Origin: a virus
Virus record (IMG/VR): IMGVR_UViG_3300028400_000205
Coordinates: 1-39,370 of that record
DNA length: 39,370 nt
Direction: 5' to 3' (one strand)
The translations under genes and the position numbers were made by a program. The notes under the pieces were generated by a model, which saw only the letters and a list, made by a program, of their open reading frames with translations, had not been told where the DNA came from and searched no databases. Positions 1 to 38,394 of the stretch are shown here, one piece after another. The first letter of the stretch is position 1; every line of letters begins with the position of its first letter.

Positions 1-1207
1 TATATTCGGCATGTGGTCCCATTGCATCTAAACTTGCACCCACACTAACTGAATCAAATTTACGCCAAAAATCAAATACCTCTCTATCTTTTAATTTTGT
101 TTTTGTAAAGTTGGTATTATAAATTAAGCGGACATCAAACTTTTTACGTTTTTCAAGTTCTTCTAAAATTATATAATGTTCGTCCATCATTAACGGTTCG
201 CCGCCGGCAAAATAAATTTGTTCTACACAATCAATATGTTCCATTAATTGTTCAATCATATCTGTTTCGGACCGACCAGCAATTTGTAATGCTTTATTAT
301 TTTTTGCCCATTCCGGACCAGCTAATATCGTTTGATCTTTATACCACGATGAACTAAAAATATGACCGCAACTGCGACAACTTAAATTACATAAATTTGA
401 AAAACGTATATCCCAATAAATCATTTCAAAATTATTCAATGATCCATCAGCATTTGTTTCTTTAACTTTACTTATATGATGACCGTGATGTTTATTTGCA
501 GAGTTTCTACCGCTAAAAAATCCATGTTTTTCTTGCTCATAACAGGCCTGACAGGCTTCGTTTGGTTTGTTAGAAAGCATATCAAGACGCAACTGATTCA
601 TATCATTACTATTGATAATTTCTTTAATTGTATTTCTTTTAACACTACCAACCGAACAGTTCATTTTTGTAAAACAACACGGATATGCTGCCCCATTAGG
701 GTGAGCATGTAAATGTATCCATGGATAGATACAAAATGTGTCACTCTTAAGAAGTAATTCTTTTTCATAATCATCTAATTCACTTAAACTAATTTTCCAC
801 GGAATTCGAGATCCATATTCATATATTTTTGGCTTTTTATCAATAATTTCTTTTTGAAATTCTCCATCAATTATTTCAAATTTAATTTCAACTGGATCGG
901 TACTAATATTCTTTAAATTGTTTATTTCTTGCCTAATATTAGGATTTGTAGTTTTAATAACAACAAAAAAATTACTAATATCGACTTTGTTAATTACTTC
1001 TTGAATTGTTTGTAATCTAAGCCCAATTGAATTTTCTGGATCATAACTATCCTTTGTATATTCAAAATAAATACGATCATTATTATTAAATACTTTTTTA
1101 TAATGTTGTTTACATTGATTTGTTAACCAATCTACAAATTCATCGTGTAATTCAAATGATTCGTAGACACCATCTATTTTAATTGTTGCAATTTCATTAA
1201 TCATCAT
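1..1207 (-). CDS. Radical SAM protein with twitch-like Cys region (3' end outside window)
   Basis: About 402 codons are visible and the gene runs off the left edge. The radical-SAM cluster motif CX3CX2C is at Cys273/277/280 (CNLSCRSC), followed by a GGEP SAM-binding motif in the context YFAGGEPLM. Upstream, from Cys159 on, there is a Cys-rich region (CIYPW, PCC, and ACQAC before the core) of the kind that binds an auxiliary Fe-S cluster in SPASM/twitch enzymes. The first ~150 residues have no motif I recognise. Start: two adjacent ATGs at 1207 and 1204; 1207 lies 6 nt after the stop of the 73-aa gene, with only a weak purine-rich AAAAGAAA before it. It is the last visible gene of the cassette. 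Family assignment is secure; substrate and reaction are unknown. It is more diverged from the other three radical-SAM proteins than two of them are from each other. Confidence 0.88.
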   Translation of the reverse strand, partial: MMINEIATIKIDGVYESFELHDEFVDWLTNQCKQHYKKVFNNNDRIYFEYTKDSYDPENSIGLRLQTIQEVINKVDISNFFVVIKTTNPNIRQEINNLKNISTDPVEIKFEIIDGEFQKEIIDKKPKIYEYGSRIPWKISLSELDDYEKELLLKSDTFCIYPWIHLHAHPNGAAYPCCFTKMNCSVGSVKRNTIKEIINSNDMNQLRLDMLSNKPNEACQACYEQEKHGFFSGRNSANKHHGHHISKVKETNADGSLNNFEMIYWDIRFSNLCNLSCRSCGHIFSSSWYKDQTILAGPEWAKNNKALQIAGRSETDMIEQLMEHIDCVEQIYFAGGEPLMMDEHYIILEELEKRKKFDVRLIYNTNFTKTKLKDREVFDFWRKFDSVSVGASLDAMGPHAEY

Positions 1208-1213
1208 TTTCTT

Positions 1214-1435
1214 TTATTGATTCCACCATTTTAATTTAAACCATAAAGCTTCTTCATCATTCATAAAATTTAATGTCATTCCTTCTCTTGTATTCAAACC
1301 TTGTTTTGTATTTTCCTGCAACCATAATGCAAGTTCTTTTTCGTGTGCTACCCACCACTGTGGATCTGTAATAATAAATATTGGCCGTTTAAGCACTTCG
1401 TCATATGTTTCTACAAATTTCGATTTAAAGCTCAT
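1214..1435 (-). CDS. 73-aa Trp-rich small protein between radical-SAM genes
   Basis: A short hypothetical protein between two radical-SAM genes. It overlaps the end of the 450-aa radical-SAM gene by 11 nt and stops 6 nt before the next one. Seven of 73 residues are Trp, in two patches: DPQWW...LALWLQ in the middle and ALWFKLKWWNQ at the C-terminus. There is no signal peptide or membrane segment. Two readings are open. It may be a small conserved phage protein; a C-terminal pattern of acidic residues followed by a hydrophobic xWFxLKW strand is something I associate with many small marine-phage proteins. Or it may be a peptide substrate of the flanking radical-SAM enzymes, which often act on Trp or Lys side chains. 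The sequence does not decide between them. Coding status is supported by tight overlap packing on both sides. Confidence 0.7.
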   Translation of the reverse strand: MSFKSKFVETYDEVLKRPIFIITDPQWWVAHEKELALWLQENTKQGLNTREGMTLNFMNDEEALWFKLKWWNQ

Positions 1436-2777
1436 TGTACCATTTAGCTAATTTTGGAAAAGTGTTAACAAAATCTTTGTTGCGACGTTTGTCATATTGA
1501 CTATAGAATTGCTTAAAGTCATTATGAAGTGATGGCATATCAAAAGTATCATCATGCGGTGTTTTGACAATATCAAGATAATCAATTAACCGTTGAACCT
1601 GATTAATTTCCATTTGATGCAGCAAAGGGCTATTCTTATATGTGTCTAGCCACGATTCTAAATCATTCCGAAATTCCATTCGTAATTTATCTGGTAATAC
1701 CAACGGGCTTTGAAATGAAGGGAAACGTAGAATATTTAATGAAAATGTTGGATAATTTTTTCCATATTCATCTTTTAATATCATTAATTTGGTAAGAAAT
1801 TTTGGTAATGATTCAAGACATAATGCGTTAATGGTGCACATCATATGGAATCCATCGACCTTGCCTTTTCTGAGGATTTTATGAATATTACTCATCCATT
1901 TATGCCATTCTAGCCCGTCGCGAATATATTCTGCTTGATCAAAAATACTTTCATTACTGGTGTATAGTTGAAAATTTTTAATATGATGTGTGGCTTCTAT
2001 TAATTTATCTATTAGATCATTATTGGCGCAAAGATTACTATTTAACGCAAATTGCATATCTGGCTCATCCTCAATAAATTTATCAAGCAATCTCCAGGTA
2101 TATCCGCTCATTAATGGTTCGCCACCAGTGAGTCTTAATTCTTGCAAAGTATATTTTAAATCGCTATCCCACCATTTAAAAAATGCTTCGGCATATGGAT
2201 TTTCTTCATTTATTTTATAAAGTTGGGCAGAATCGTGAGTATGAGTAAAATGATTTCTTCCATCGCTTATTAAATTTTGATATGGTCCGTTATTTTTTAT
2301 ATCTTTAACCCAAGATGAACTAAAAGCAGGATTACAGTAACTACAAGCAAAATTACAAGTTCTATCAAAGGCGATTTCAAGTGTTTTGAGATTAATATCT
2401 TCTGAATGGTTTGTTTTAATTGCATTCTGGAGATCCTCTTCATTATATATTACACTTTTATAAGCTCGGTCGCTTATTGCATCTTTGCCCATATCTTCAA
2501 TTCGCCAACAATATTGACAACCCACAGGTCTTTCGCCACATTGCATCATTCTTCTGTCTTCTTTTTTTTGATCGGTATTATGAATAGCTTTTGGATTTAA
2601 TTTTATTTCTTCAAGAGAAATCTTATGTGCTGGTGGATGATGGCAACTTGTTGTCATTCCGCTGCCTAACCAAATCGTGGCGTTATACCATTTAGCAAGA
2701 CACAATGATGGACTAAACGAATTAAGATATTCGAGAACTTCTTTATCTGTTTTTCTTCCGTTTTTGCGTAAACTCAT
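1425..2777 (-). CDS. Radical SAM protein with N-terminal twitch-like region (450 aa)
   Basis: The radical-SAM CX3CX2C motif is at Cys141/145/148 (CNFACSYC), followed by LTGGEPLMS. The N-terminal region contains five further cysteines, Cys26, Cys45, Cys80, Cys87 and Cys90, in SLCLAKW, SCHHPP and CGERPxxCxYCW, probably ligands of an auxiliary [4Fe-4S] cluster placed before the core rather than after it. It is a clear paralogue of the 468-aa protein at 3932-5338; the CLAKW, HPPxHKI, HNT and CGERP blocks are shared. The start ATG lies one nucleotide after the stop of the preceding 395-aa gene (TAATATG), consistent with coupled translation. The final 40 residues include a YDKRRNxDFxxxFPxL segment also present at the end of the paralogue. 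The product formed is unknown. Confidence 0.9.
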   Translation of the reverse strand: MSLRKNGRKTDKEVLEYLNSFSPSLCLAKWYNATIWLGSGMTTSCHHPPAHKISLEEIKLNPKAIHNTDQKKEDRRMMQCGERPVGCQYCWRIEDMGKDAISDRAYKSVIYNEEDLQNAIKTNHSEDINLKTLEIAFDRTCNFACSYCNPAFSSSWVKDIKNNGPYQNLISDGRNHFTHTHDSAQLYKINEENPYAEAFFKWWDSDLKYTLQELRLTGGEPLMSGYTWRLLDKFIEDEPDMQFALNSNLCANNDLIDKLIEATHHIKNFQLYTSNESIFDQAEYIRDGLEWHKWMSNIHKILRKGKVDGFHMMCTINALCLESLPKFLTKLMILKDEYGKNYPTFSLNILRFPSFQSPLVLPDKLRMEFRNDLESWLDTYKNSPLLHQMEINQVQRLIDYLDIVKTPHDDTFDMPSLHNDFKQFYSQYDKRRNKDFVNTFPKLAKWYNEL

Positions 2778-2778
2778 A

Positions 2779-3966
2779 TTATTTTTCTTTTATCAAAAAC
2801 TCTAATTCTTTTGGTGTTGTAATATTATGCCTTTCATTAAATTGTTTAAAAAAATTCTGTTGGTCTTTTCGGACTTCATGATTGAATTTTGTATTCTGAA
2901 GAATTGATATCAGAGTATTAATTTGCATATATTCTTTATCAAATTTATATCGTAATGTTGATTTTGGCAATAATTTTTCTATTTCTAATTTAATTTTTTC
3001 TAACTTAGGAATTGCCATTTCTTTTTCTTCTTCTTTTAATATTTCAAATGAACATATTCTTGGCTGCACACATGGTGACATAAACCAATTAATTCTTTCT
3101 AAATAATCCTCCTTAAGAGCATATATGAATTCATATAATTTGTCAATTCCAAAAATTGTATGGGCAGTAATTAAAGAATTAAAATGAATTCTGACAGGTG
3201 TCTGAGTGAAAAGAAAATTCAAATTTTTATTAAAAATTTTCCAATCAAACCCATACCGAATATATTCTTGAACATTTGGATTAACTGTATCCAAACTCGG
3301 ATTTATCCCTAAAACTCGACCATCTGCAAATGATAAGAATTTATCCAATGTTTTTGTATTAGGAAAACTTAAATTACTCGAAACAAAAATTTTCTTTATG
3401 TTTGAAAGATCAGCATTAGAAAGAATTTCGTATAGAACATCGCCCATAAATGGCTCACCGCCTGAAATAAACAACGAGGTAATTTGTGGATTTTTATCTA
3501 GATACTCTAAAAAAACCTCAGCTGGTTTATTTTCACATTCGACACCATCATAATACACCGACGAATCATACTTTAGTTTTATACGCCCATTAAGTTTTTC
3601 ATCTGTTTGCCACCGAGAACTATATTTTGCATTACAATATGTACATTGAAAATTACAAAGATTTCCGAGAACTAAAGTTGCTTTTACGTTATCGTGCCAT
3701 TCCTTAGCTAACCTAATTTTATATTGACGTAAACTTTCTTGGCCACTATCCTCTATTTCCCAACAATAACTGCACCCTTCATCTCTAATTCCATTTAAAG
3801 AATTTTCTCGACGTTTTTCAAATTCTTCAGGTTCTAAAATATCAATTGGTTTTGATTTGCAACATGCATAGGAATACCCTTGCGAAGGTGCAAAATATAA
3901 ATCGTTCCAGTGCCCTGGACAAAATGAATTTTTATTTTTGTCGTTCAGCATAATATCTGCATTCAT
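2779..3966 (-). CDS. Radical SAM protein, divergent member (395 aa)
   Basis: Radical-SAM core with CX3CX2C at Cys104/108/111 (CNFQCTYC) and FISGGEPFMG. The N-terminal cysteine set is shorter than in its neighbours: Cys16 (FCPGHW), Cys35-Cys36 (ACCKS) and Cys65/68 (GCSYCWEIED). The CxYCWxxED signature is shared with the 450- and 468-aa proteins, but the HPPxHKI and CGERP blocks are missing. It ends with a FNERHNIT segment related to the end motif of the paralogues. It overlaps the 468-aa gene by 35 nt, the longest overlap in the cassette. M1 at 3966 is used; a second ATG at 3951 (M6) is possible and neither has a strong Shine-Dalgarno. Family certain, reaction unknown. Confidence 0.9.
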   Translation of the reverse strand: MNADIMLNDKNKNSFCPGHWNDLYFAPSQGYSYACCKSKPIDILEPEEFEKRRENSLNGIRDEGCSYCWEIEDSGQESLRQYKIRLAKEWHDNVKATLVLGNLCNFQCTYCNAKYSSRWQTDEKLNGRIKLKYDSSVYYDGVECENKPAEVFLEYLDKNPQITSLFISGGEPFMGDVLYEILSNADLSNIKKIFVSSNLSFPNTKTLDKFLSFADGRVLGINPSLDTVNPNVQEYIRYGFDWKIFNKNLNFLFTQTPVRIHFNSLITAHTIFGIDKLYEFIYALKEDYLERINWFMSPCVQPRICSFEILKEEEKEMAIPKLEKIKLEIEKLLPKSTLRYKFDKEYMQINTLISILQNTKFNHEVRKDQQNFFKQFNERHNITTPKELEFLIKEK

Positions 3967-5338
3967 CCCAAAATGGCTTTAGATCGGGAAATACCTCTAA
4001 AAAATTTGTATTATGTCTTTTATCATATTCATTAAAAAAATTGTAAAAGTCGGCTTTTTTGCGTTCTACATTATTTGTTCCTTGTCGCATCAGAGTTATA
4101 TCTCTATCCAGACGCTGAACTTCGTAATCTTTAAATCCTTTAAATCGATTGTTTGGTGATTCAAGATTTTCGAGCATAAACTGTTTTGACTTTTCTAATT
4201 TTTCAACATAATGTTCTGGTAATATTTGCATACTCATCCATTCTGGATGACGCAAAATTGGTGTGTCGAACCAAACCCGCTGAAAATTATTACTGTATTC
4301 TTTTCGCAAATATAAAATATATCGTAGAAGTAAATCTAAATTATGAATAGATAAATTACTCATTGTAATGATAAATGTAATACTACTATAACTTGGTATT
4401 TCACTTAAAAACTGTTCAACCCTTTTAATAAGTAAATTAAAATCGAGACCACTCCTTATATATTCTGCATGTTTCCCCCATGTGTCAACTGAAACATATT
4501 GCATAAAATGTTCAATGTTACCAGTGGTTAATTTTTTTACATACGAAATATATTTTTCCCATAATTTTTCTTCTACTGAAAAATTACTTGTAACATTAAG
4601 ATGTAAATCTGGTTTTGAGTTTTCGAGTACATAATCAAAAACCTTATAAGTATTTTTATCCATGAGTGGTTCACCACCAGTCATTCGAAAATGCACTAAC
4701 TCTTTGTATAATTCTGGCCACCATTTCCAAAATGCTTCGAGGTAAGGATTATATTCTCTGTTTGGTATTGGCCGCCTATCGCCTGTAAAATACATAGGGT
4801 CGTTGTGTGGTTGTGTAGTGGGATAGGCTCCGTATTTCTTTACTTCTTTCATCCAGGTTGATGAAAACTGTGGGCTACAATAAGAACATGCTAAGTTACA
4901 TGCATTATTAAAATTTACTTCGACATATGAAGGAATTACATTTGATTCTGGGTTTGAAACAATTGCATCAAAATCTTTTGCTGCCCAGGGCTCGCCACTT
5001 CGGTAATGCCGATCACTTAATTTTCCTTGATCTTCCATGTCCCAACAATAGCTACACTCCAAAGGACGTTCCCCACACATCATTTGTTTTCGTGCTTTAA
5101 ATTTTTGTTTGGTATTATGAAGTGCTGACGGATCTTTTTTAATATCTTCAATATTGATTTTGTGCAACGGTGGATGGTAACAAGAGTTATTAAGTCCTGT
5201 GGATAAATGTAAAGATACCTGTTTCCATTTAGCAAGACAAAACGAAGGACTAACAGAATCAAGTTTTTCTTTCATTAACTCTGCATCTGACAAAAATTTA
5301 CTTTTAAAATTTTTATCTACTTCGTCGCCTTTATTCAT
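3932..5338 (-). CDS. Radical SAM protein with N-terminal twitch-like region (468 aa)
   Basis: First of the four radical-SAM genes in transcription order. CX3CX2C is at Cys147/151/154 (CNLACSYC), followed by MTGGEPLMD. N-terminal auxiliary-type cysteines are Cys34 (FCLAKW), Cys53 (SCYHPP), Cys88 (CGERP), Cys95 and Cys98 (CSYCW). Start: ATG at 5338, which shares one base with the TAA of the upstream 311-aa gene (TAATG) and is preceded by AAGAAGG on the mRNA. The in-frame TTG six bases earlier is less likely. The strong similarity to the 450-aa protein, including a common C-terminal FFNEYDKRHNxxF motif, indicates a gene duplication with the 395-aa gene lying between the two copies. Peptide or small-molecule modification is likely from family knowledge, but no substrate can be named. 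Confidence 0.9.
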   Translation of the reverse strand: MNKGDEVDKNFKSKFLSDAELMKEKLDSVSPSFCLAKWKQVSLHLSTGLNNSCYHPPLHKINIEDIKKDPSALHNTKQKFKARKQMMCGERPLECSYCWDMEDQGKLSDRHYRSGEPWAAKDFDAIVSNPESNVIPSYVEVNFNNACNLACSYCSPQFSSTWMKEVKKYGAYPTTQPHNDPMYFTGDRRPIPNREYNPYLEAFWKWWPELYKELVHFRMTGGEPLMDKNTYKVFDYVLENSKPDLHLNVTSNFSVEEKLWEKYISYVKKLTTGNIEHFMQYVSVDTWGKHAEYIRSGLDFNLLIKRVEQFLSEIPSYSSITFIITMSNLSIHNLDLLLRYILYLRKEYSNNFQRVWFDTPILRHPEWMSMQILPEHYVEKLEKSKQFMLENLESPNNRFKGFKDYEVQRLDRDITLMRQGTNNVERKKADFYNFFNEYDKRHNTNFLEVFPDLKPFWDECRYYAERQK

Positions 5339-6273
5339 TACCAACCTTCTTGTTCTCTAATAACATCAATTTCTCTAACCATTATACCCCTATTATAAAA
5401 ATCTGATTTATAATGACATTTAAAGAATGTGCTATAACCTTTGTCACACAAATCTATCATCGGCAAATCTAATTGCTCATTAAGTTCATTTCCTAACGTG
5501 GCGAGCTGTAAACCAAGTTCATTATGATTAACATTTTTCTTATATATTTCTTCTAGATTTGGAAACCACTGTACTTCTTTATAATTCCAATCTGTAAGCA
5601 TGGTCATGTGTGTTCCCATACGCGCACCAAGTATAGCATATAAACCATATTCTACATCAGCACCTATATTATGCCAGATAGTTAGGTTGTCCATGTTGCG
5701 CTTGTGTACCGCATCTTTAAACTCTCCAATTGTAGGCTTTGAACCTTTATTAAGACACATTTTAACACCTTCGCGAAATCCTGCCCTCCATGCATGGAAT
5801 TCACTACCATTAGGATATGTAGTACTATAGCAATCGTGCATTGCCCAATAATATGGGTCGAAACAAAATTCGACATCTGTATCGTCACTTCCTTCACTAT
5901 TTTCGTGGGTTTTCATATTGTAAATAAATTCTTTGGTCCAACAACTAATACCTCCATTACCATACATCAACCCATTAATGTAATTTTTGGCGCGCCAACG
6001 AAATACTGCCTTCTCATATTCTTCATTTGGAAATTCGAGTGTTTCATTAAAAAATTCAAAATCAGGTAAATTATCACCATCAATTAAAATAAAACGATCA
6101 GTATCACTAACATCAGCAGCCGCTTTATGTGCAGCATCACTTCCCTGGACACCGTCAACACGTTTTGCCCACGGAATCATATTTTTTATTTTTACCCAAA
6201 ATTCTTCTTTTTGCGGCTCATCAAAACTTAGATATATTACATCTAAATCAGCGATATCAATACTCTTACTCAT
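5338..6273 (-). CDS. GT-A glycosyltransferase-like protein (311 aa)
   Basis: A soluble protein with a GT-A-type layout: an N-terminal nucleotide-binding-like strand (DVIYLSFDEP), then a strand ending in ILIDGDN at residues 62-68, where DGD takes the place of the DxD metal and nucleotide-sugar motif. The later part is rich in aromatic residues (WRAKNYINGLMYGNGG, FCFDPYYWAMHD) and contains HAWRAGFREGVK, possibly the acceptor side. It overlaps the 106-aa gene by 8 nt and is coupled to the radical-SAM gene through TAATG. The family call rests on the strand-DxD pattern and on two further GT-like genes in the same operon, not on a full domain match, so the sugar donor and acceptor are unknown. Confidence 0.65.
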   Translation of the reverse strand: MSKSIDIADLDVIYLSFDEPQKEEFWVKIKNMIPWAKRVDGVQGSDAAHKAAADVSDTDRFILIDGDNLPDFEFFNETLEFPNEEYEKAVFRWRAKNYINGLMYGNGGISCWTKEFIYNMKTHENSEGSDDTDVEFCFDPYYWAMHDCYSTTYPNGSEFHAWRAGFREGVKMCLNKGSKPTIGEFKDAVHKRNMDNLTIWHNIGADVEYGLYAILGARMGTHMTMLTDWNYKEVQWFPNLEEIYKKNVNHNELGLQLATLGNELNEQLDLPMIDLCDKGYSTFFKCHYKSDFYNRGIMVREIDVIREQEGW

Positions 6274-6586
6274 AAGTTTTAACCTTCCAGAAAGCTTCGT
6301 TTCCGACTATACTAATATCATTTTTAAGAGTTCCATATCCAGATGTTGATGGTACTAATTTACCAATTGGTATATTCTTTATTTTTTTTATCTTACCGTC
6401 TTTAACAATTATATCAAACCTACCAGCAGCATATTCATCTTTTGTTATGGTAATATAGTCACCCGGCAAGTCCTCCATTGAATAAGCAATTGGTAAATTT
6501 GTTTTTGGATCATAATATAATCGATATTCAATTTTTTTTGGCGATACTTCATCAACTAGGTCAAGAGCCTTAAAAAAATTTGTCAT
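6266..6586 (-). CDS. 106-aa conserved-type hypothetical protein
   Basis: I do not recognise the family. The sequence reads as a small mostly beta protein: EYRLYYDPKTNLPIAYSME, then DYITITKDEYAAG and FDIIVKDGKIKKI, with the phrase YYDPxTxxPIxY typical of a compact beta domain. It has no cysteines, signal peptide or membrane helix. The ATG at 6586 has a good Shine-Dalgarno (AAAGGAAT) inside the end of the preceding glycosyltransferase-like gene, which it overlaps by 17 nt, and it overlaps the following one by 8 nt. Its place between two GT-like genes suggests a partner or accessory subunit of the sugar-transfer step. This is inference from position only. Confidence 0.7.
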   Translation of the reverse strand: MTNFFKALDLVDEVSPKKIEYRLYYDPKTNLPIAYSMEDLPGDYITITKDEYAAGRFDIIVKDGKIKKIKNIPIGKLVPSTSGYGTLKNDISIVGNEAFWKVKTYE

Positions 6587-7382
6587 GGTAATATTCCTTT
6601 AATTTTTTATTGAAATCTTTTATGTAATAGTGAAATGGATATTCTTGATCAATAGTGTTAATACGTACCTGAGGACCATCAAATTCCCAAACCAATTCTT
6701 TTGTCCAATCTTCGCCTATTAAGTTATTAACTTTTCCTTTCATATGAATTATTGATGGATATGTGGTGTTAGGTAATGTTACTTTATCAATACCTATCAT
6801 TTTTGCTGCAATAGCATAAACTAAATCAGTTGTCCCATCGTCATTCATTCCCATTTTAATTTGTGTTTGAACTCTATTCCAATTATCAAAAAGATTTCTA
6901 ACCAAATCAAAAAAGTTCTTTGCTTCTTTACTTAATCTCCAATAGGTAATTGCATTATAGACATCTGGCAAATCATTTGCATCAAATATTTTTCTATATG
7001 TTCTATTAGTTATAATCTGATTTTGCCAATTACGAGCTTTTGTAGTTAAAACGACATCTCTTTTTTCAAACATCAACCACCAATGATCGATACTATGAGG
7101 GACAATCATATCAGCTTCAATTTTGATTGTTTCTCTAAAAGGACTTGCATAAAAAACTTGCCAATCATTTGCAAATAAATTATTATAATTAACAGGATAA
7201 GGAAATGTTTCTATATAATCAAAAACTCCATAGTCAACATCATCATGACAATCCGACAATAATGCAATTTTAGCATCTGGTGTGTGAAATCGGATACTTT
7301 TAGCACAAGTTACAGCACATTCAAGATACTCTTTACCGATTGCCCAAATAAGATATCCTCGATCATCTTTAACTGTTGGCAT
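6570..7382 (-). CDS. Glycosyltransferase-like protein (GT8-like GT-A fold, 270 aa)
   Basis: The N-terminus reads GYLIWAIGKEYLECAVTCAKSIR, the usual opening strand and helix of GT-A/GT8-like enzymes, followed by a second strand AKIALLSDC. An acidic motif EAD sits at residues 89-91 in ETIKIEADMIVP, where GT8 enzymes have DxD, so the first metal ligand would be Glu instead of Asp. A later HMKG segment near residue 213 could supply the C-terminal His metal ligand. The ATG at 7382 has a Shine-Dalgarno GAGGAA and overlaps the upstream gene by 14 nt. No membrane segment is present, so action in the host cytoplasm is expected. Donor and acceptor are unknown. Confidence 0.7.
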   Translation of the reverse strand: MPTVKDDRGYLIWAIGKEYLECAVTCAKSIRFHTPDAKIALLSDCHDDVDYGVFDYIETFPYPVNYNNLFANDWQVFYASPFRETIKIEADMIVPHSIDHWWLMFEKRDVVLTTKARNWQNQIITNRTYRKIFDANDLPDVYNAITYWRLSKEAKNFFDLVRNLFDNWNRVQTQIKMGMNDDGTTDLVYAIAAKMIGIDKVTLPNTTYPSIIHMKGKVNNLIGEDWTKELVWEFDGPQVRINTIDQEYPFHYYIKDFNKKLKEYYHDKFF

Positions 7383-8187
7383 TCACAATTTCCTCAAGTG
7401 ATTTTTTATTCATGCAATGAATATCATGATTACTAACAATACTTCTCATTGATCTTAATTTATTCATAAAAAATTTTTCATATTCGAGTTCGAATTCGTT
7501 TTCGTTAATTTGTTTAACCTTAATATCTGTTAATGCCGTTGGCAATCCCCATGGAATTGTTGGAATTGAAGTAATTCTATGACCATATGCAATTGATAAA
7601 GCAATACTAACTGCATAATCGTTACGAAAAGGTGCAGGCTCGAATTTATAGAGTTTACTATAAAAAGAATAATTTTCTCGTATCATTGCTAAAAAATCAA
7701 AAATTAACTTAGCAAAACTTGACTTTCTAAAAAATAAAACAGTTGCCCAATAATGAGGAAATTTTAACATTCCAAAAGTTTGATAAGATCTAAGACTATC
7801 TTTATTGGCCAAATCATAAGCATATCTATGACACAGAAAATTATGTGGCGAGTCAAATAAAAGATTTAATCGATCACTATTAACAATGTAATCGCTATCA
7901 ATTACGATTGTTTCATCATAAGGTGATAATTCATATGCTTGAAATCGATTAGCATTATACCATGAACTACGAAAATCAGATTCTGAAATATCAAAATTCC
8001 TTTGGTTTGCTTCTACCTTTTCCTTTAAGACTATATTGTGTTTTGTGTCACAAGCACTATTTTCGTCTGTTACAATAGTAGTAGGCAAACCAAGGAATTT
8101 TTCAACTCGGTTAGCGATCCATGTCGCTTGCTTAAAATAATTTATTTTTTCGTTATTAAATGCAAAAATTAAAATTCCACGAGTCAT
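7369..8187 (-). CDS. Glycosyltransferase-like protein (GT-A type, 272 aa)
   Basis: Opens with GILIFAFNNEKINYFKQA, a strand-helix unit like that of nucleotide-sugar enzymes, and carries a DxD motif DSD at residues 97-99 in ETIVIDSDYIV. Toward the C-terminus, VSNHDIHCMNK offers histidines that could complete a metal site. Same general architecture as the 270-aa protein, but little sequence in common beyond the motif positions, so it is either an old duplication or an independent acquisition. The start overlaps the stop of the 100-aa gene as ATGA. It is the first GT-like gene after the cassette promoter. Confidence 0.68.
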   Translation of the reverse strand: MTRGILIFAFNNEKINYFKQATWIANRVEKFLGLPTTIVTDENSACDTKHNIVLKEKVEANQRNFDISESDFRSSWYNANRFQAYELSPYDETIVIDSDYIVNSDRLNLLFDSPHNFLCHRYAYDLANKDSLRSYQTFGMLKFPHYWATVLFFRKSSFAKLIFDFLAMIRENYSFYSKLYKFEPAPFRNDYAVSIALSIAYGHRITSIPTIPWGLPTALTDIKVKQINENEFELEYEKFFMNKLRSMRSIVSNHDIHCMNKKSLEEIVNANS

Positions 8188-8486
8188 CGTTTTTTCTGTA
8201 ATTCTGAATATTCATTATACCAGGCGTTCATTTGTTCTTGCCAACGTTCTTTTGCCATACGGTATAATTCGGTCCCATTAACTTTGCATGGATTACCATA
8301 TTCGTCGGGTAAATAGATTTCATTATTAGATTCTGACATACTCGCATTTATTATATTCAATAATTCAGGGCCTGCTTTCCACATACCATCGTATGCTGAG
8401 AATAGCATTTTAGCTTCGTATTTTTCTTTAAGAATTCTTTTGGCTGACTCGTGATCAAAACGACGTTTTACATCTATACTATCCAT
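8184..8486 (-). CDS. 100-aa unknown, first gene of the accessory cassette
   Basis: A small charged, mostly helical protein (KRRFDHESAKRILKEKYEAKM in the first 30 residues, WQEQMNAWYNEYSELQKKR at the end) with a central NEIYLPDEYGNPCKV strand region. I do not recognise a function; it gives the impression of a conserved marine T4-like phage hypothetical. The start is set to the ATG at 8486, because the Shine-Dalgarno AGAGGT lies 6 nt before it. An in-frame ATG at 8516 is upstream of the -10 element and would not be in the transcript. The stop overlaps the next ATG as ATGA. Confidence 0.75.
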   Translation of the reverse strand: MDSIDVKRRFDHESAKRILKEKYEAKMLFSAYDGMWKAGPELLNIINASMSESNNEIYLPDEYGNPCKVNGTELYRMAKERWQEQMNAWYNEYSELQKKR

Positions 8487-8492
8487 AAAATT

Positions 8493-8498
8493 ACCTCT
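8493..8498 (-). promoter_or_regulatory. Shine-Dalgarno AGAGGT deciding the start of the 100-aa gene
   Basis: The mRNA-sense AGAGGT lies six bases before the ATG at 8486. It excludes the longer start at 8516 and sits at about the predicted transcription start, so the leader is very short. Confidence 0.75.
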
Positions 8499-8504
8499 AT
8501 GAAT

Positions 8505-8533
8505 AGTATAGTGCAAAACTATAGAAATGTAAA
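8505..8533 (-). promoter_or_regulatory. Sigma70-like promoter of the accessory cassette
   Basis: On the minus strand TTTACA (8533-8528) is followed after exactly 17 bases by TATACT (8510-8505). This is a good host-type promoter in the 57-bp gap between the last structural gene and the cassette. It lacks the NATAAATA octamer of the late promoters, so the cassette is probably transcribed early or middle, with possible late read-through from the structural block. Confidence 0.7.
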
Positions 8534-8543
8534 GTAAATTTGG

Positions 8544-9491
8544 TTAACTACCAGTTTGAGAACTACTCATAGTTGGGGTACCCCAACTATTCGAAAGATA
8601 CGTTGTACTTGGTGGATAAAGGGTAACCGATGAGGTTAATGTTCCATCAACAAGTTCATCAGTATTAGCATCAGCATTATCAATAAACTTAACCAAAACT
8701 GTTACAACATTGGCTGATCGAGCAGCGGTAATTTCAATATAGTTAGCAGTATAATCAACAGTATCATCATATTGACGAAAACGAACAGCTTGTGTTGTTC
8801 CGTATTGCATTACACCATTAGTAGTATCGATAGTGTTAACAACACCAGAACCACCAACTTTAGTTGTTCCGTCGTAAGTGGTACCAGCAATAACTGCTGG
8901 AGATCCCCAGCCAGTTAAATTAATCGTACCAATAGCAGAACAAAGATTCGACCATCCTGTGTTTTTTGCTTCTGCTGATCCACCTGTGCGGCTAGTTTGA
9001 ATAGCAATTCGTCCTCCTGCATTAAACCAATAACGAGCCTGTAGTTCAGATGGAAATGTAATAGTGTGAGTTGCAGTTACTGATACATTCCATGCTGTTG
9101 TTCTGGTGGCTGTACCACCAGTGGTGATAGCAGTTCCATTAGCAGCGGCATTGCGACGATTTGTAACAATTGCAGAAATATTACTTTGTAATGCAGAATA
9201 TACAGCAATTGTGTCACCAACCGAAGGGTTAGTTATTGGAGTAATAGAAGTACCTTGATGATTTGCAAGAGTTGATATTTTATTTAATAGTGTTGCCCAC
9301 TGTGCTGCGGTAATCACAGATCCTTGTGCAACTGCTGGAACAGTAGTTTGTCCATAACCTCTATCGCCAGACCCAACACCTGCAACAGTATTTACATTAT
9401 TGTTTGTGTTATTGATTGTTCCGTCTGGGTTCCCCCACGCAAAAATATTGTAATCATCGTCAAGGATAGTACTGCCTGAAGTATATGCCAT
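8544..9491 (-). CDS. Virion structural/fibre-like protein (315 aa)
   Basis: Low-complexity composition rich in Thr, Ser, Ala, Asn and Gly, without membrane helices, typical of phage fibre or neck/tail decoration proteins. The N-terminal 80 residues contain ILDDDYNIFAWG and a short helical block AAQWATLLNKISTLANHQG. The rest is beta-rich, with repeated short strands such as RIAIQTSRTGG and YIEITAARSANVVTVLVKFID. It is the last gene of the late block, starts 15 nt after the stop of the 493-aa fibre gene, and its 3' end contains a perfect 18-bp palindrome. Function is inferred from composition and position; attachment point and receptor are unknown. Confidence 0.65.
   Translation of the reverse strand: MAYTSGSTILDDDYNIFAWGNPDGTINNTNNNVNTVAGVGSGDRGYGQTTVPAVAQGSVITAAQWATLLNKISTLANHQGTSITPITNPSVGDTIAVYSALQSNISAIVTNRRNAAANGTAITTGGTATRTTAWNVSVTATHTITFPSELQARYWFNAGGRIAIQTSRTGGSAEAKNTGWSNLCSAIGTINLTGWGSPAVIAGTTYDGTTKVGGSGVVNTIDTTNGVMQYGTTQAVRFRQYDDTVDYTANYIEITAARSANVVTVLVKFIDNADANTDELVDGTLTSSVTLYPPSTTYLSNSWGTPTMSSSQTGS
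8571..8588. repeat. Perfect 18-bp palindrome at the end of the structural block
   Basis: AGTTGGGGTACCCCAACT is identical to its reverse complement. It lies in the last 15 codons of the 315-aa gene. In RNA it could fold as a 7-bp stem with a GUAC loop. No U-run follows, so it is not a standard intrinsic terminator. Confidence 0.8.
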
Positions 9492-9506: not shown

Positions 9507-10988
9507 TTAATTAACTGTTACAAAGGCTTCGATCACACCTTCGCCATCTGTATCTTTATCTTCAAGAGCACGACCAATAACATTAAATGGTGTTATTTCA
9601 TCGGGTGTTGCTGCTCTTGCAAGACCATTTCCTGCCGAAACAAGCCTTTGTCCTTTTTGTATTCGACCAATAACACGAACAGGAACGCGCCCGCTCATTG
9701 CCACTGGCGGATGTGTGTTATCTTCACCTGCATCACTATTCATTAAGAATGCTGCATTACTACTTATAACACCAAACACATCTTCAGATAATTCTTCAAC
9801 CGCTTTAGTAATTTCGGCAGTACCACCTAATTTAACTACTGTTCCAGGTTCGAGCATTTGATCTGCTTCAAATCTTTCAGCTAAGTCAGCGTATTGTGCT
9901 GTTGTTGCCTGACCATTAAATGTTACAGCGTGAATGGTTGCAAAGCGTTGAGTTGCAGTTCCAAAATCAATTGTATTATCAGTTGATGGATTAATAATAC
10001 CAGTGATATCGACTGTGCCGTCGGCTAAAAGAACGCCCGACAATGATGTTGAAATAGATGTATCAACATAATCTTTATTGGTAATATCTGTGCCTGCTAA
10101 TGGTGCCGACACCGAAGCTCTTCCACTTATACCATTAATAGTAATAACATCTGTTGGTGTACCATTACTATTAATTTGAAGTATTAAATTACCATTGTTA
10201 GTAACGTTCGACAGAATAACGTCATTATTAAGAATTCTAAGTTTCGCATCACTATCGGCACCAACCGATAGTCCATTATCGTTAAGAATGCCTAACGTTC
10301 CGAGAGTCGTATCATTGGTAGTTGAACTTAAAAATCCAGAACTATCAATGCCATCGAGTGTTTGTGCATTCGTGGCGTCACCAACAAAGAGTGGTGTTTG
10401 TCCTCCTATTGTCTGAGCCAATTGGATACCTGGTTTGATAGTGCCTGCGAAACCTGTAATCGGTGTAGCTGGAGTAAATTCTGCATCTTTGCTAACAATC
10501 GCTACAATATCATTATTAGCATATAATTTGATTACAACGTGATCAACTGTTAAATTATCTGTAATTGTATCAACAATTGCGCCAGATGTTCCTGTTCCAG
10601 AAGTGAATGCCGGTCCTACAAGAATAAATTGAGATCCGTCCCAAACATTTAATTGTGAGTTAACTGTGTCAAACCACATATCACCAACAACATTGTTTGT
10701 CGGCGGTGTTGATTGCGAAGTAGCTGCACCTAAATTCTTAAACGATGACCCATTATAAACTTTTAATAGGCCAGCCGACGAATCATACCAAAGTTGCCCG
10801 GTTAGCGGATTAACTGGTGGTGAAGCACTTGCACTATTTTCAAGCATTCGAATAAAGTTTTCGCCTAAAAACTCACCGTAACCAGCATAATTTTTACCGA
10901 TAATTGTTACAGACGAATCAGTGTTAATTGTACCGTCTGCAACCGTAGCAAAAATTGAACCGTCTGTTTTATTAATTGTATATGCCAT
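9507..10988 (-). CDS. Tail fibre-like structural protein, paralogue A (493 aa)
   Basis: Residues 1-310 are clearly homologous to the 666-aa protein next to it; both open with MAY(T/I)IN(K/R)TDGSIFAT and a DGTINTDSSVT block. Two copies of a small module G-x-L/M-W-Y/F-D...V-Y/W-(N/D)-G-S-x-F lie at residues 64-84 and 102-121; such modules are common in phage tail fibres. The C-terminal ~140 residues are unique: YADLAERFEADQMLEPGT opens a beta-rich domain with repeated Val-Ile strands, ending in DKDTDGEGVIEAFVTVN. This end could be a trimerisation, chaperone-like or receptor domain. The gene has its own late promoter 25 nt upstream and a GGAG ribosome site. Fibre role is inferred from composition and position. 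Confidence 0.75.
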   Translation of the reverse strand: MAYTINKTDGSIFATVADGTINTDSSVTIIGKNYAGYGEFLGENFIRMLENSASASPPVNPLTGQLWYDSSAGLLKVYNGSSFKNLGAATSQSTPPTNNVVGDMWFDTVNSQLNVWDGSQFILVGPAFTSGTGTSGAIVDTITDNLTVDHVVIKLYANNDIVAIVSKDAEFTPATPITGFAGTIKPGIQLAQTIGGQTPLFVGDATNAQTLDGIDSSGFLSSTTNDTTLGTLGILNDNGLSVGADSDAKLRILNNDVILSNVTNNGNLILQINSNGTPTDVITINGISGRASVSAPLAGTDITNKDYVDTSISTSLSGVLLADGTVDITGIINPSTDNTIDFGTATQRFATIHAVTFNGQATTAQYADLAERFEADQMLEPGTVVKLGGTAEITKAVEELSEDVFGVISSNAAFLMNSDAGEDNTHPPVAMSGRVPVRVIGRIQKGQRLVSAGNGLARAATPDEITPFNVIGRALEDKDTDGEGVIEAFVTVN

Positions 10989-11013
10989 CTAATGATAACT
11001 CCATTATTACCTT

Positions 11014-11021
11014 TATTTATC
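11014..11021 (-). promoter_or_regulatory. T4-type late promoter GATAAATA
   Basis: GATAAATA on the minus strand, in the 38-nt gap before the 493-aa fibre gene, with 25 nt between octamer and ATG. It matches the NATAAATA form of the T4 late promoter (TATAAATA) described for marine T4-like phages and recognised by gp55-type sigma factors. Confidence 0.65.
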
Positions 11022-11026
11022 AAATA

Positions 11027-13027
11027 TTAATAGCTAATGATAACTAATCCATCGCCGCCTTTACCACCAGTTGAACGACATCCACTGGTTCCTGGAGAAC
11101 CAGTTCCAATTGTAATTGTTAATACTTCGCCTGGAGTCACAAACATTGGAATACCAACTCCTGCCCAACCACTGTGACCGCCAGCGCCAGCTAAACTGTC
11201 TTGCCCCTGGTTACCAGCGCCACCGGATCCAAGCGACCCTGGATTAGCGGTTGTATAATAACCTGGGGTGCCGCCGCGTCCGCCAGGCGCAAATAAACTA
11301 TCGCCACCATGACCACCACGTTCAGGGTTTCCGTAAGTGGTATCTCGACGTTCACCAGCGTTACCAAATGCTAAATTTGATAAATTAACTGTATATGAAT
11401 TTTTGATTCTATAAACTTTTGTTGTAATAGTATCAGGCGATACGGCACCAGTGCCGCTGATTACTGCCCTTCCGCCTGAAAAATATAATGCATCTTGAGA
11501 TCCAACTATTGATGTTGTTCCTCCTCGGGCTGGATTTCCGCCAGCGCCACAGGAGCCACCATCGCCGCCGCCCTGACCGCCTTGTCCTCCGCCGACTCCA
11601 GTAACAGTAATTACAGTTACACCTGCAGGAACAACAAATGTTCCATTAGATGTAAACACTTCGGTTCCTGAAGGCGGCAAAGGTTGAGGATTTGATGGGC
11701 TATAGAAATAAGAACTATCGTATCCATCTAATGTATCAGCATCTAAACCACTACCTGACCCGTCGACTGTTTTAATTGCTGTTAACAAATCACTTGAAGT
11801 AACAGTACCGGTATAACCACCAACCGACTGTACAGCATCTACCGGTGTAAGCATTTCTTCCCAATCGGATAATATTGACGGATCTGTACCAGCTAAAATA
11901 AATGATTTACTTAGATCGGTCCGAATTGCAACATCACCTGTTTCGGCAGTTAATGCTAACATCGATGGCTCATCGGATACAACATAGGTATTTGTAATTG
12001 CTATTTTTGGTAATTGTGTTTGATATATTAAACCTGATGGATCAAGTGATGCAAGACCGTTTGGTACACCTTTTTGAGAATTAATTTCCGAGACAATAGT
12101 ATTATCAACATAATTCTTTGTTGTAATATCTTGTAAATCAACTGGTTCAAGTGTTGTTGCTCTACCGGTATCACCTCGCAAAGTTAACGGTTCAACAACC
12201 GTTATGCCGTTATGTACTTGAAATTTTATATTGTTTGATGGTGTAACACTTCTTATATAAACATTTTGGCCAACAACCGTCAGGCTTAAATCATTACTGG
12301 CTCCTACACTAAGGCCACCATCATTTAAGATAGATAACGAACCGGTGGTCGAATCACTGTTAATTGAACTTAAAAAGTTACTAGCAGGTTGTCCTTCGAG
12401 TCTTAACGAATTAGAAGCATCACCATTAAAAATTGGTGTATTGCCATTAATATCTGAAGATAAATTAACTCCAGGTTTAATGGTACTAAACCCTGGTATT
12501 GGTGTTGCTGGTGTAAACTCGCTGTCAACACTATAAATATTAACTAACTCATTAGCAACATACATTTCAACTACGACATGATCAATACCATTGTCGTCAG
12601 TAATAGTGTTAAGAACATTTCCAGATTTTCCAGCTGATTGTGATACTTGTGGGCCAATTAAGTTGAACTCTGTCCCATCCCATACAAAAAGTTGAGAGTT
12701 ATTTGTATCAAACCATAAATCGCCAATTGATTTTTCTATTGGTTCGTCAGCTGAAACTGTGGCTCCACTTAAACTTTTAAAGGTTGATCCATTAAAAACT
12801 TTTAATGTATTAGTTGATGTATCAAACCACAATTCGCCACTTAGTGGATTGGCTGGTGGTGAGGAATCAGCACTATTTTCTAATAGTCTTAAAAAGTTTT
12901 CTGCAATTGCTTCGCCATAATCAGTATAGTTTCGTCCAACCAATGTTACAGAACTATCTGTATTGATAGTACCATCAGCAATTGTAGCAAATATTGATCC
13001 ATCTGTTCTGTTTATAATATATGCCAT
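11027..13027 (-). CDS. Tail fibre-like protein with glycine-rich tip, paralogue B (666 aa)
   Basis: The N-terminal ~310 residues are shared with the 493-aa fibre, including two GxLWFD modules. A middle segment (residues ~310-420) has the SEINSQKGVPNGLASLDPSG pattern and a YVVSDEPSMLAL block often seen in fibres. From about residue 475 it becomes strongly glycine-rich (VGGGQGGQGGGDGG, ERGGHGG, GGRGG, GGAGNQG, TGGKGGDG) and ends in LVIISY. Such polyglycine stretches are known from receptor-binding adhesins of the gp38 type in T4-like phages, where they form packed polyglycine-II helices. The likely role is a receptor-binding tip. It starts 11 nt after the 200-aa gene. Confidence 0.78.
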   Translation of the reverse strand: MAYIINRTDGSIFATIADGTINTDSSVTLVGRNYTDYGEAIAENFLRLLENSADSSPPANPLSGELWFDTSTNTLKVFNGSTFKSLSGATVSADEPIEKSIGDLWFDTNNSQLFVWDGTEFNLIGPQVSQSAGKSGNVLNTITDDNGIDHVVVEMYVANELVNIYSVDSEFTPATPIPGFSTIKPGVNLSSDINGNTPIFNGDASNSLRLEGQPASNFLSSINSDSTTGSLSILNDGGLSVGASNDLSLTVVGQNVYIRSVTPSNNIKFQVHNGITVVEPLTLRGDTGRATTLEPVDLQDITTKNYVDNTIVSEINSQKGVPNGLASLDPSGLIYQTQLPKIAITNTYVVSDEPSMLALTAETGDVAIRTDLSKSFILAGTDPSILSDWEEMLTPVDAVQSVGGYTGTVTSSDLLTAIKTVDGSGSGLDADTLDGYDSSYFYSPSNPQPLPPSGTEVFTSNGTFVVPAGVTVITVTGVGGGQGGQGGGDGGSCGAGGNPARGGTTSIVGSQDALYFSGGRAVISGTGAVSPDTITTKVYRIKNSYTVNLSNLAFGNAGERRDTTYGNPERGGHGGDSLFAPGGRGGTPGYYTTANPGSLGSGGAGNQGQDSLAGAGGHSGWAGVGIPMFVTPGEVLTITIGTGSPGTSGCRSTGGKGGDGLVIISY

Positions 13028-13038
13028 TAGCTATTTCC

Positions 13039-13641
13039 TCACGCTGTTAGATGCGTTAGAGTTTGTATTCTTACAGTGTAATCAATTTGAATTTGTCTAT
13101 TCAATGCCTTTTGGATAGGATGAAAAACAACATGTGTAATTAATTTCAATTCACTTGACGATCCAAACCAGGCTTTCAGTCCTAACTCGTCAAAAACAAA
13201 ATCGCCATCAATCTGTGTACTATTATCGAATGCTTGCTGGCCAGCTGGTTCGCCATAATCTAGCAAACAACTTACCAAAATATCTGTATAATATTTGCCG
13301 CTTGTATGAATTACTGTTAAATTATTACGTGTTACATCTGTATTAGCAGTTGAATTATCATCAACAACCTTAGAATAAGTTTCATTGTATAGATCGGCAT
13401 TCTGTCCTACTGTATTTGGCGGAAGATATGTAATTACACCAGTTGGATCGACACTCGATCCACCATTACCAAAGGACATTTGGTAAATCTGACCGATGTT
13501 TTTGTTTGCGATGCTATAAGCCAGGGCTTCTGAGAAATTTTCGTGATGAATAGCATTATTCTTATCTTCAAATACTTCTAGAGTATTTGGATCATAAATT
13601 TTAATATGTCCTGATACTTTTATTTTTGAATTTTCAATCAT
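13039..13641 (-). CDS. 200-aa virion structural protein
   Basis: A mostly beta protein starting with MIENSKIKVSGHIKIYD and containing YQMSFGNGGSSVDPTG, ITYLPPN and KYYTDILVSCLLDYGEP. It has no membrane or signal segment. The pattern SFGNGG...DPTG is one I associate with baseplate or fibre-connector proteins of marine T4-like phages, but I cannot name a T4 equivalent. Its ATG shares one base with the TAA of the 44-aa gene (TAATG), so the two are translationally coupled. It lies between the giant wedge-region protein and the fibres, which suggests a fibre-attachment role. Confidence 0.65.
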   Translation of the reverse strand: MIENSKIKVSGHIKIYDPNTLEVFEDKNNAIHHENFSEALAYSIANKNIGQIYQMSFGNGGSSVDPTGVITYLPPNTVGQNADLYNETYSKVVDDNSTANTDVTRNNLTVIHTSGKYYTDILVSCLLDYGEPAGQQAFDNSTQIDGDFVFDELGLKAWFGSSSELKLITHVVFHPIQKALNRQIQIDYTVRIQTLTHLTA

Positions 13642-36569: not shown

Positions 36570-37538
36570 ATGGCTAAAAGAAAAAAGAACTATCTTAATA
36601 ATAAAGACATGCTTAAAGAAATTCATTTAAGTAAAATTTCATATTGTGCATTCCGAGACCGCGACAACGATCATCAACAAGATATAATAGTCGATTCAAC
36701 AGACGAAATTTTCGGAACAAGAAAAGTTAGTGTTGGAAAAGACAAAAATGGCAACACAATTTATAAAGATGTTCCAATAATTGAATTAGCAAAACAAGCA
36801 AGAGCTGATCGACTTACCAAAGAACATGGTATTCCTACTAAACCTGAAGATATCGACGTTGAAGATCTTGTGTTCCGTGTTATGACTGACGAACATATTC
36901 CCCGAGTACCAAAGAAAAAATCAAAAGCGGCTTTAGCTAAAGAAGCAAAAAAAGCAAAAAGTGATGCTATCTTTAATGAATTACTCGATGATGATGAAGA
37001 AGAACAATTAGATATTAAGGATCCGAATGTTGAACTCGTTCCTATGAAAGTGAATTTTCCGCCATTTAAACACTATCGGCTTTTTGATTTTGAAAAACAC
37101 GGTATTGCTAAACCAGAAAATGGAAAACCATACGATCTTGTTTTAGTAGGAAAGAGTCACTGGAAAGGAGATCTCGAAAACGGACATTTTTCAAAAGATC
37201 ATGGAAAAACAACAGACAACCTTGCTATGATGTATATGAAACTGTGTGAAAGATATGCAACACGAAGTAACTGGAGAAATTATACATACAACGACGAAAT
37301 GAAAAGTCAAGCACTTTTGCAACTAGCCCAAGTAGGGTTACAATTTAATGAAGCAAAATATGACAACCCTTTTGCATATTATACTACAACTGTAACACAT
37401 TCATTCACTAGAGTATTAAACACAGAAAAAAATCTACAAAAAATACGTGACGATATTTTAGAAGCAAACGGTTTAACACCGTCATGGACTAGGCAACTTG
37501 AAAACGAAATAAGTAATAAAGATAACCATGACAGCTAA
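36570..37538 (+). CDS. 55: Late-transcription sigma factor gp55
   Basis: 322 aa. The C-terminal ~110 residues are sigma70-region-2-like and diagnostic of gp55: NLAMMYMKLCERYATRSNWRN, then EMKSQALLQLAQVGLQFNE and NPFAYYTTTVTHSFTRVLNTEKN. The protein replaces host sigma on RNA polymerase and reads the NATAAATA promoters of the structural genes. It is much longer than T4 gp55 (185 aa); the first ~200 residues contain a basic start (MAKRKKNYLNNKDMLKEI), a Lys/Ala-rich helix (KKKSKAALAKEAKKAKSDA) and an acidic patch (LLDDDEEEEQ-like). The C-terminus is polar (ISNKDNHDS) and lacks an obvious hydrophobic clamp-binding tail such as T4 gp55 has. It overlaps the next gene by 11 nt. Confidence 0.93.
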   Translation: MAKRKKNYLNNKDMLKEIHLSKISYCAFRDRDNDHQQDIIVDSTDEIFGTRKVSVGKDKNGNTIYKDVPIIELAKQARADRLTKEHGIPTKPEDIDVEDLVFRVMTDEHIPRVPKKKSKAALAKEAKKAKSDAIFNELLDDDEEEQLDIKDPNVELVPMKVNFPPFKHYRLFDFEKHGIAKPENGKPYDLVLVGKSHWKGDLENGHFSKDHGKTTDNLAMMYMKLCERYATRSNWRNYTYNDEMKSQALLQLAQVGLQFNEAKYDNPFAYYTTTVTHSFTRVLNTEKNLQKIRDDILEANGLTPSWTRQLENEISNKDNHDS

Positions 37539-38394
37539 AATTGTGTTTACACAGGATATTCCTGGTGAACGTGAGTGGCTCGAATATCGGCTGGGCTCAA
37601 AAAGTTTGCAAACTCGATCAAGCGGATTATGGAAAACCATTTCTAATTCTAATAATATTTTTGAGATTCCACCTGAGGACGATTTTTCCGATTTAGATAT
37701 CAAAAATAACCTAACTTACAAAAGTGTGTTTTCCAATTGTCTTGGAATTCACGATAAAAATTGGGTATATTCAAAAAATTTAATAACAGATTTAGCATTC
37801 TCAAATAACCCTAATTTAGAAACTTTTCAAGTTTTTACGTTTGGACGATCTGCTACTGAATTTACTGAATCGATTCTTTATTCAAAATACAAAAAATTGA
37901 AACCTCATTATACAATAAAAAACGAACACCAAGATCAAAAATTATTAGAATTATTAAAAATTAAAAAACCTTTTGTTGTATTTTTATATAGAAAGAATTG
38001 GTGGGATTGGATAATTAGCACTTATGTTGGTCATAACACTGGTATGCCTCATTTCGATATCAATTGGGATGAACTACTTTTTACATTAACATCAGAAATT
38101 ATAGATGAATTTGAAGATTACGCAAAACAAACCTGGAATTATTGGTGTAATATTCGAGTAGCAAATCCTGATTTATCATGTTATCTACTTGAAACATCTG
38201 AAATTATTACAAAATATAAAGATTTTCCATCAGAACACAAAAAACTTTCATATGATAAAGAAAAAATAATTAGCAACTATTCAGAAATGAAAGATATATT
38301 TTATAACCAATACTACAATAGATGGAAATTTTTTGAAAAAAATGCTCGTCGTCATTTACTAAAAATGGGTTGTCAAACAGAATTGCCAATTTAA
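37528..38394 (+). CDS. Sulfotransferase-like protein (288 aa)
   Basis: Two motifs suggest a sulfotransferase fold. FTFGRSATEF (residues 103-112) resembles the 5'-phosphosulfate P-loop consensus GRSGTTxL that binds PAPS. VVFLYRKNWWDWIIS (from residue 150, Arg155) resembles the 3'-phosphate motif LVRdPxxxxxSxY, with Ser after the WDW block. The rest is helical and charged, without a signal peptide. The P-loop lacks the usual second Gly (SAT in place of SGT), so binding could be weakened or altered. It overlaps gp55 by 11 nt and shares its promoter, so it is probably made early. It is an accessory gene between two core replication/transcription genes. Substrate unknown. Confidence 0.55.
   Translation: MTAKIVFTQDIPGEREWLEYRLGSKSLQTRSSGLWKTISNSNNIFEIPPEDDFSDLDIKNNLTYKSVFSNCLGIHDKNWVYSKNLITDLAFSNNPNLETFQVFTFGRSATEFTESILYSKYKKLKPHYTIKNEHQDQKLLELLKIKKPFVVFLYRKNWWDWIISTYVGHNTGMPHFDINWDELLFTLTSEIIDEFEDYAKQTWNYWCNIRVANPDLSCYLLETSEIITKYKDFPSEHKKLSYDKEKIISNYSEMKDIFYNQYYNRWKFFEKNARRHLLKMGCQTELPI

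Follow-up and report, generated by a model that had tools for sequence, protein, structure and literature searches.

A conserved operon of sugar-transferase-like and radical-SAM genes beside a fibre-like gene of T4-like phages, a candidate pathway of virion modification

T4-like phages from aquatic environments are known to carry radical S-adenosylmethionine (radical-SAM) genes, with up to 12 reported in one environmental genome (PMC5332604), and the parts of a study on pelagimyophages that deal with the host-recognition region describe glycosyltransferases next to varying radical-SAM cassettes, with the glycosyltransferases read as modifying the host surface (PMC7029224). So far, the radical-SAM genes of aquatic phages have been listed singly as auxiliary metabolic genes. 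Here, we analysed the IMG/VR virus record IMGVR_UViG_3300028400_000205 over its whole 39,370 bases (the window), which is cut at both ends, and describe in it a minus-strand operon of glycosyltransferase-like and radical-SAM genes beside a fibre-like gene, F4. Relatives of this operon resolve into five ordered orthologous radical-SAM enzymes, in one operon with sugar transferases beside the fibre-like gene, in more than 100 non-redundant phage loci. A literature search on radical SAM, tail fibres and glycosyltransferases gave no description of such an operon, and we regard it as a real conserved system, undescribed as far as the searches show and made of known kinds of parts.

Scanning IMG/VR with the radical-SAM gene R1, with F4 and with the glycosyltransferase-like gene H revealed about 230 loci, 172 of them remaining after near-identical contigs were removed. 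Whichever gene served as the anchor, the order c8-F2-F4-s5-G1-G2-s7-H-R1 was near-invariant, which holds for the cassette relatives among the best 80 returned per query and not for every F4-like protein. Among 108 non-redundant H loci with enough flanking sequence, F4 was present in 107, s5 in 104, a G gene in all 108, s7 in 89, a radical-SAM gene in 107 and a downstream accessory gene in 96, while the search anchored on F4 found G and H in 58/58 loci and the one anchored on H found F4 and G in 57/57. The radical-SAM genes fall into five orthologous classes, R1 to R5; the order of any two of them has no more than one exception, and all five occur together in 55 loci. All cassette genes are under purifying selection, strongest in H and R1 (median dN/dS, the ratio of non-synonymous to synonymous substitution rates, 0.054 and 0.061; R2-R5 0.084-0.104, G1 0.111, G2 0.101). 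The first-pass annotation of the window had taken these genes for a whole pathway and not a stray auxiliary gene, and the near-invariant synteny, the five ordered classes, the intact motifs and the low dN/dS all agree with it; where independent gain and loss or disrupted motifs might have appeared, we found co-occurrence and intact motifs. Exceptions to the synteny are locus L148, which has H twice and lacks a radical-SAM gene within reach, and L199, with its radical-SAM genes on the opposite strand.

The window itself is T4-like, encoding proteins of the baseplate wedge and hub as well as a late sigma factor and an SbcD-like nuclease, and the fibre genes adjoining the operon, as had been pointed out before, lie in a T4-like tail and baseplate context with that late sigma factor. 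The operon is tight and runs from 8486 to beyond position 1, and its ten open reading frames (ORFs) were all confirmed: s5, G1, G2, s7, H, R1, an extra radical-SAM gene of 395 amino acids (aa), R2, a 73-aa ORF and R3. Neighbours overlap by 1-35 nucleotides or are separated by 1-6, so the earlier picture of ten genes joined nearly without gaps behind a sigma70-like promoter was borne out, and this promoter is conserved. The first gene, s5, starts with the ATG at 8486; R1 starts with the ATG at 5338 in a TAATG overlap with H, and the fourth radical-SAM ORF (1207 to 2) runs past the contig end. The features are as follows.

13039..13641, minus strand: c8, conserved structural-region protein (phrog_11259), first in the syntenic block
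9507..13027, minus strand: F2, two fibre proteins (13027-11027 and 10988-9507), the second with a Peptidase_G2-like C-terminal region
8544..9491, minus strand: F4, fibre-like protein of 315 aa, candidate acceptor, without a match in Pfam, PHROGs or PDB
8505..8533, minus strand: sigma70-type promoter TTTACA-17-TATACT at the F4-s5 junction, its position kept in relatives
8184..8486, minus strand: s5, conserved protein of 100 aa that opens the operon
7369..8187, minus strand: G1, GT8-like (glycosyltransferase family 8-like) protein with a DxD motif (DSD), assigned by paralogy with G2
6570..7382, minus strand: G2, GT8-like glycosyltransferase with an ExD motif (EAD), with an AlphaFold2 model matching glycogenin
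6266..6586, minus strand: s7, conserved small protein of 106 aa, fast-evolving
5338..6273, minus strand: H, new family of 311 aa, probably a GT-A-type glycosyltransferase, with a DGD motif
3932..5338, minus strand: R1, radical-SAM enzyme with an N-terminal twitch (N-twitch), class R1
2779..3966, minus strand: extra N-twitch radical-SAM enzyme of 395 aa, outside R1-R5
1425..2777, minus strand: N-twitch radical-SAM enzyme of class R2, 450 aa
1214..1435, minus strand: Trp-rich ORF of 73 aa without a homologue, probably outside the conserved system
2..1207, minus strand: N-twitch radical-SAM enzyme of class R3, in which an N-terminal domain of about 155 aa is optional; truncated at the contig end

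On the plus strand, a 288-aa ORF at 37528-38394, flanked by the genes of the late sigma factor and the SbcD-like nuclease, looks sulfotransferase-like by eye.

In the window, the promoter reads from 8533 to 8505 upstream of s5. The median gap between F4 and s5 in relatives is 59, with junction medians of -4 to -22 from s5 onward, and a promoter score of at least 10/12 was reached in 64 of 151 distinct F4-s5 junctions, as opposed to 3.7% of shuffled ones; many F4-s5 junctions also hold a GC-rich hairpin. It follows from the junction gaps and the promoter, and in many loci the hairpin, that s5 is the first gene of the operon and that transcription can proceed separately from that of the fibre gene. 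The hairpin, AAAGGGCC...GGCCCTTT, stands directly before the promoter in loci such as L005, L012 and L021 and looks terminator-like for F4; the window has no such hairpin. The T4-type late promoter TATAAATA was also considered, but gave fewer matches than chance and was uninformative.

Concerning the radical-SAM proteins, the window holds R1, R2, the beginning of R3 and, between R1 and R2, the additional 395-aa gene. Four enzymes with Cys-rich, twitch-like regions had been noticed beforehand, and all four indeed match NF033640 (N_Twi_rSAM), R1 with 331 bits and the others with 310, 269 and 169.3 bits, the last being the 395-aa protein, 0.7 bit below the curated cut-off of 170. The Pfam radical-SAM core was found in the window proteins, in one of them below the Pfam cut-off, and the CxxxCxxC motif is present in 337/337 homologues of at least 340 aa. 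Four further cysteines, of which C36, C97 and C100 are invariant and C55 is near-invariant, all lie N-terminal to the core, as does a SPASM(-like) Pfam match at residues 159-223 of the R3-class protein. A profile built from 33 paralogues matches the solved radical-SAM enzymes BtrN, BlsE, SkfB, YydG and anaerobic sulfatase-maturating enzyme, its N-terminal part matching the C-terminal twitch of BtrN (residues 183-258). Judged from these alignments, the Cys-rich twitch of the operon proteins lies N-terminal to the core. The optional domain of the R3 class (734-1207 on the minus strand in the window) gives rise to forms of 420 and 570 aa.

No family library named the three glycosyltransferase-like proteins: G1, G2 and H had no match in Pfam, including Glyco_transf_8 (PF01501), and no glycosyltransferase name from NCBIfam or PHROGs, G2 matching phrog_1903, a family of unknown function. 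Structure prediction was therefore used. The G2 model (pLDDT 93.3) finds glycogenins as its top PDB matches (Foldseek E 2.4e-8, probability 1.00), followed by UGGT and LARGE1, glycosyltransferases acting on glycoproteins, which gives strong support to a GT8/glycogenin-type fold. G1 is a paralogue of G2 and is placed with GT8 by this paralogy only. The acidic motif is DxD in 201/204 G1 proteins and ExD in 204/204 G2 proteins; we describe both as GT8-like and not as members of PF01501. H is less clear, with a model of pLDDT 77.5 whose nearest folds are mostly glycosyltransferases or nucleotidyltransferases at weak scores (best PDB E 0.017), a similar picture in BFVD, where the two strong matches are unnamed phage proteins, no family-library match and an uninformative PDB profile search. 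Its DGD motif is kept in 211/211 sequences, and H represents a new family, probably of GT-A type. Thus, the earlier count of three glycosyltransferase-like enzymes holds well for G2 and, through paralogy, for G1, while H is GT-A-like on weak matches.

Among 50,697 sequenced phage records, the operon was essentially absent in the searches made; by tblastn against isolated phages, G2, H and s5 had no match and R1 matched only two Vibrio phages. The Vibrio phages K566 and K567 are isolated phages with a related module. In the jumbo phage K566, four N-twitch radical-SAM genes are interleaved with two GT8 genes and one GT4-like gene, an independent pairing of N-twitch radical-SAM with GT8 genes. 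This module (L316, 4591-14058) includes a 225-aa ORF that is fibre-like in look. Scans of viral contigs with the K566-type radical-SAM protein returned nothing.

Acquisition from a bacterial host was considered and rejected: scanning GTDB contigs gave only ten loci, four of them (L237-L240) from phages that had been binned with metagenome assemblies, the rest being mostly Bdellovibrionota with tandem radical-SAM genes. The four cassette phage contigs were binned in Betaproteobacteria, Rickettsiales, Pelagibacter and Verrucomicrobia assemblies. In the bacterial order of one GTDB locus, N_Twi_rSAM exceeded the cut-off in 63/129 genomes, often in many copies, and in 0/14 control genomes; H was found in nine of the 129, all nine N_Twi_rSAM-positive and often with the two adjacent. 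In two regions that we read, bacterial H lies near genes of glycosyltransferase family 2 (GT2), in one of them also with an amine-oxidase-type flavoprotein, and a further bacterial radical-SAM locus is situated among DegT, GT2 and GDP-mannose dehydratase genes. In the order of G002 (Bdellovibrionota), genomes including G003 and G035-G037 carry more than 10 N_Twi_rSAM genes each, with tandem arrays of four to eight, sometimes between housekeeping genes. No H was detected in 297 genomes from the phylum to which G005 (L246, Flavobacterium) belongs. Both the bacterial cases and K566 support a functional link of N-twitch radical-SAM enzymes with sugar transferases.

One Bdellovibrionota chromosome, G061, carries the arrangement F4-s5-G1-G2-(163 aa)-H, flanked on either side by radical-SAM genes and directly behind pheT. 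Its segment includes rnhB, rplS and trmD, named by eye from the sequence, and the stretch that was read contains no phage structural gene. The H protein of G061 is sister to the phage clade and other bacterial H proteins fall outside; therefore, the module did not arise by recent insertion of any phage sampled here. The same module (L314 7061-18379, G061:C21) includes a 516-aa protein with two H-like halves.

F4 is the best candidate acceptor, since no other virion-type gene accompanies the module throughout, the bacterium included. A PDB profile search with F4 gave nothing informative. For a relative in phage PA5oct, the annotation states detection by mass spectrometry, and scans of viral contigs with the PA5oct-type F4 returned nothing. 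From the position of the genes, virion fibres or a host surface target had been suggested earlier; the linkage with the fibre-like gene stands and extends to a bacterial chromosome without other phage structural genes, and through this linkage supports a putative modification of the virion fibre.

The observations are that the genes are inherited together in a fixed order, with their motifs intact and under purifying selection, that G2 has a GT8 fold and that the operon has a conserved promoter of its own. On this basis, we see about even chances that the operon encodes a cytoplasmic pathway of glycan building and radical remodelling acting on F4, the cytoplasmic route being the most likely one because the proteins are soluble, no export or lipid-carrier gene is present and the transferases are glycogenin-like. 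In such a pathway, G1, G2 and H would transfer sugars from nucleotide donors to residues of F4 or to a growing chain, and radical chemistry would rewrite the glycan, R1-R5 each performing one oxidation, epimerisation, deoxygenation or coupling on the glycan or the glycosylated protein. Lineage-specific decorations might be added by the variable enzymes encoded downstream in relatives (carbamoyltransferase, SGNH/GDSL-like proteins, epimerases and the uncharacterised c6 family), s5 and s7 may be chaperones or carriers, and the modified fibre would tune host recognition or protect the virion. Somewhat more tentatively, at less than even chances, we propose a dedicated, hitherto undescribed virion-modification pathway in which three sugar transferases, together with five N-twitch radical-SAM enzymes acting in sequence, place a structurally unusual glycan or glycan-peptide linkage on F4, a module common to T4-like phages and at least one Bdellovibrionota chromosome, whose bearer may have a fibre of phage type serving it as an adhesin. 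Fibres are known to take part in prey recognition by Bdellovibrio (PMC10769870), a kind to which F4 might belong.

Several findings weigh against a pathway directed at F4. The GT-A assignment of H is weak, with no PDB match below E 0.001. The promoter, and often also the hairpin, separates F4 from the operon transcriptionally; the F4-like protein of PA5oct has no adjoining cassette, in a genome without N_Twi_rSAM above the cut-off; K566 has no detected F4, s5 or H near its module; bacterial tandem radical-SAM arrays can sit apart from glycosyltransferases; and F4 was found in only 1/369 genomes of the phylum, namely G061.

The main rival is that the enzymes alter host lipopolysaccharide or capsule and thereby block superinfection or release progeny. 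It would account for the position of the cassette in the host-recognition region, for its own promoter apart from F4, for the bacterial H and radical-SAM relatives near GT2, DegT and GDP-mannose dehydratase genes, and for accessory carbamoyltransferase, SGNH and epimerase genes like those of surface polysaccharides; the pelagimyophage glycosyltransferases, in a region where radical-SAM cassettes vary, were so interpreted in the part of the study concerned (PMC7029224). However, no flippase, polyprenyl-phosphate transferase or membrane acyltransferase was found in the cassette, whose proteins are soluble and free of membrane-like segments, which do occur in 7 of 107 extra ORFs. The strict linkage with F4, including that on a bacterial chromosome, is not predicted by host-surface modification, and the GT8 matches are closest to protein-directed enzymes, though GT8 also includes lipopolysaccharide enzymes. 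We consider this explanation possible but rather unlikely.

SPASM/twitch radical-SAM enzymes often modify peptides, and radical chemistry might crosslink or epimerise F4, s5 or s7 with glycosylation second, as in ribosomally made modified peptides. While matches to SkfB, YydG and anaerobic sulfatase-maturating enzyme, bacterial arrays away from glycosyltransferases and the conservation of s5 and s7 would fit, Pfam and NCBIfam revealed neither an RRE/PqqD domain nor a precursor-like peptide, s5 and s7 are themselves conserved proteins that do not resemble precursors, and the independent radical-SAM/GT8 pairing and the sugar loci point to sugars, leaving peptide chemistry improbable. The first-pass annotation had considered a glycosylated or crosslinked peptide a reasonable hypothesis for the product, which so far is not supported, the bacterial relatives of H and the radical-SAM enzymes standing among polysaccharide genes. 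The 73-aa Trp-rich ORF was rejected as a precursor, having no homologue in phages, the viral scan or the loci; neither this ORF nor the 395-aa gene, counted among the four radical-SAM genes and without a relative in the viral scan, is conserved in relatives, and the ORF probably lies outside the conserved system. DNA modification is also known to involve phage glycosyltransferases and radical-SAM enzymes, QueE being an example of the latter, and a hypermodification of phage DNA or nucleotides against restriction might be imagined from weak matches of the operon proteins to QueE-type models. With the cassette located in the fibre region, following F4 across phages and one bacterium, and containing no recurring nucleotide-modifying partner gene, this is by far the least probable explanation.

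There is a substantial chance that the system is a new kind of virion modification. The ordered operon points to a glycan chemistry directed at the virion that would differ from the phage glycosylation known so far, and it makes testable what a large class of radical-SAM genes in viruses does. Neither the H nor the F4 family has an entry in the libraries searched.

Compared with the T4-like aquatic phages described before, our locus shares glycosyltransferases and radical-SAM cassettes near tail-fibre genes, but the relevant parts of those reports (PMC7029224, PMC5332604) describe such genes as variable or auxiliary and do not report a fixed operon, radical-SAM classes, a promoter or the linkage with F4. 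The K566 module shows the same pairing of radical-SAM with GT8 genes in a different gene order, with F4, s5, s7 and H not detected there. G2 shares the fold of glycogenin (GT8) and has an acidic, putatively metal-binding motif, with about 12% identity, ExD in place of DxD and no Pfam GT8 match. The radical-SAM proteins match BlsE, which acts on a sugar nucleoside, in the core, and BtrN, which acts on an aminocyclitol, in the twitch region, although the twitch of BtrN is C-terminal and that of the operon proteins N-terminal. With NF033640 they have in common the radical-SAM core and the N-terminal Cys-rich twitch; whereas that model stands for a subfamily without a named reaction, the enzymes described here form five orthologous classes ordered in one operon with glycosyltransferases.

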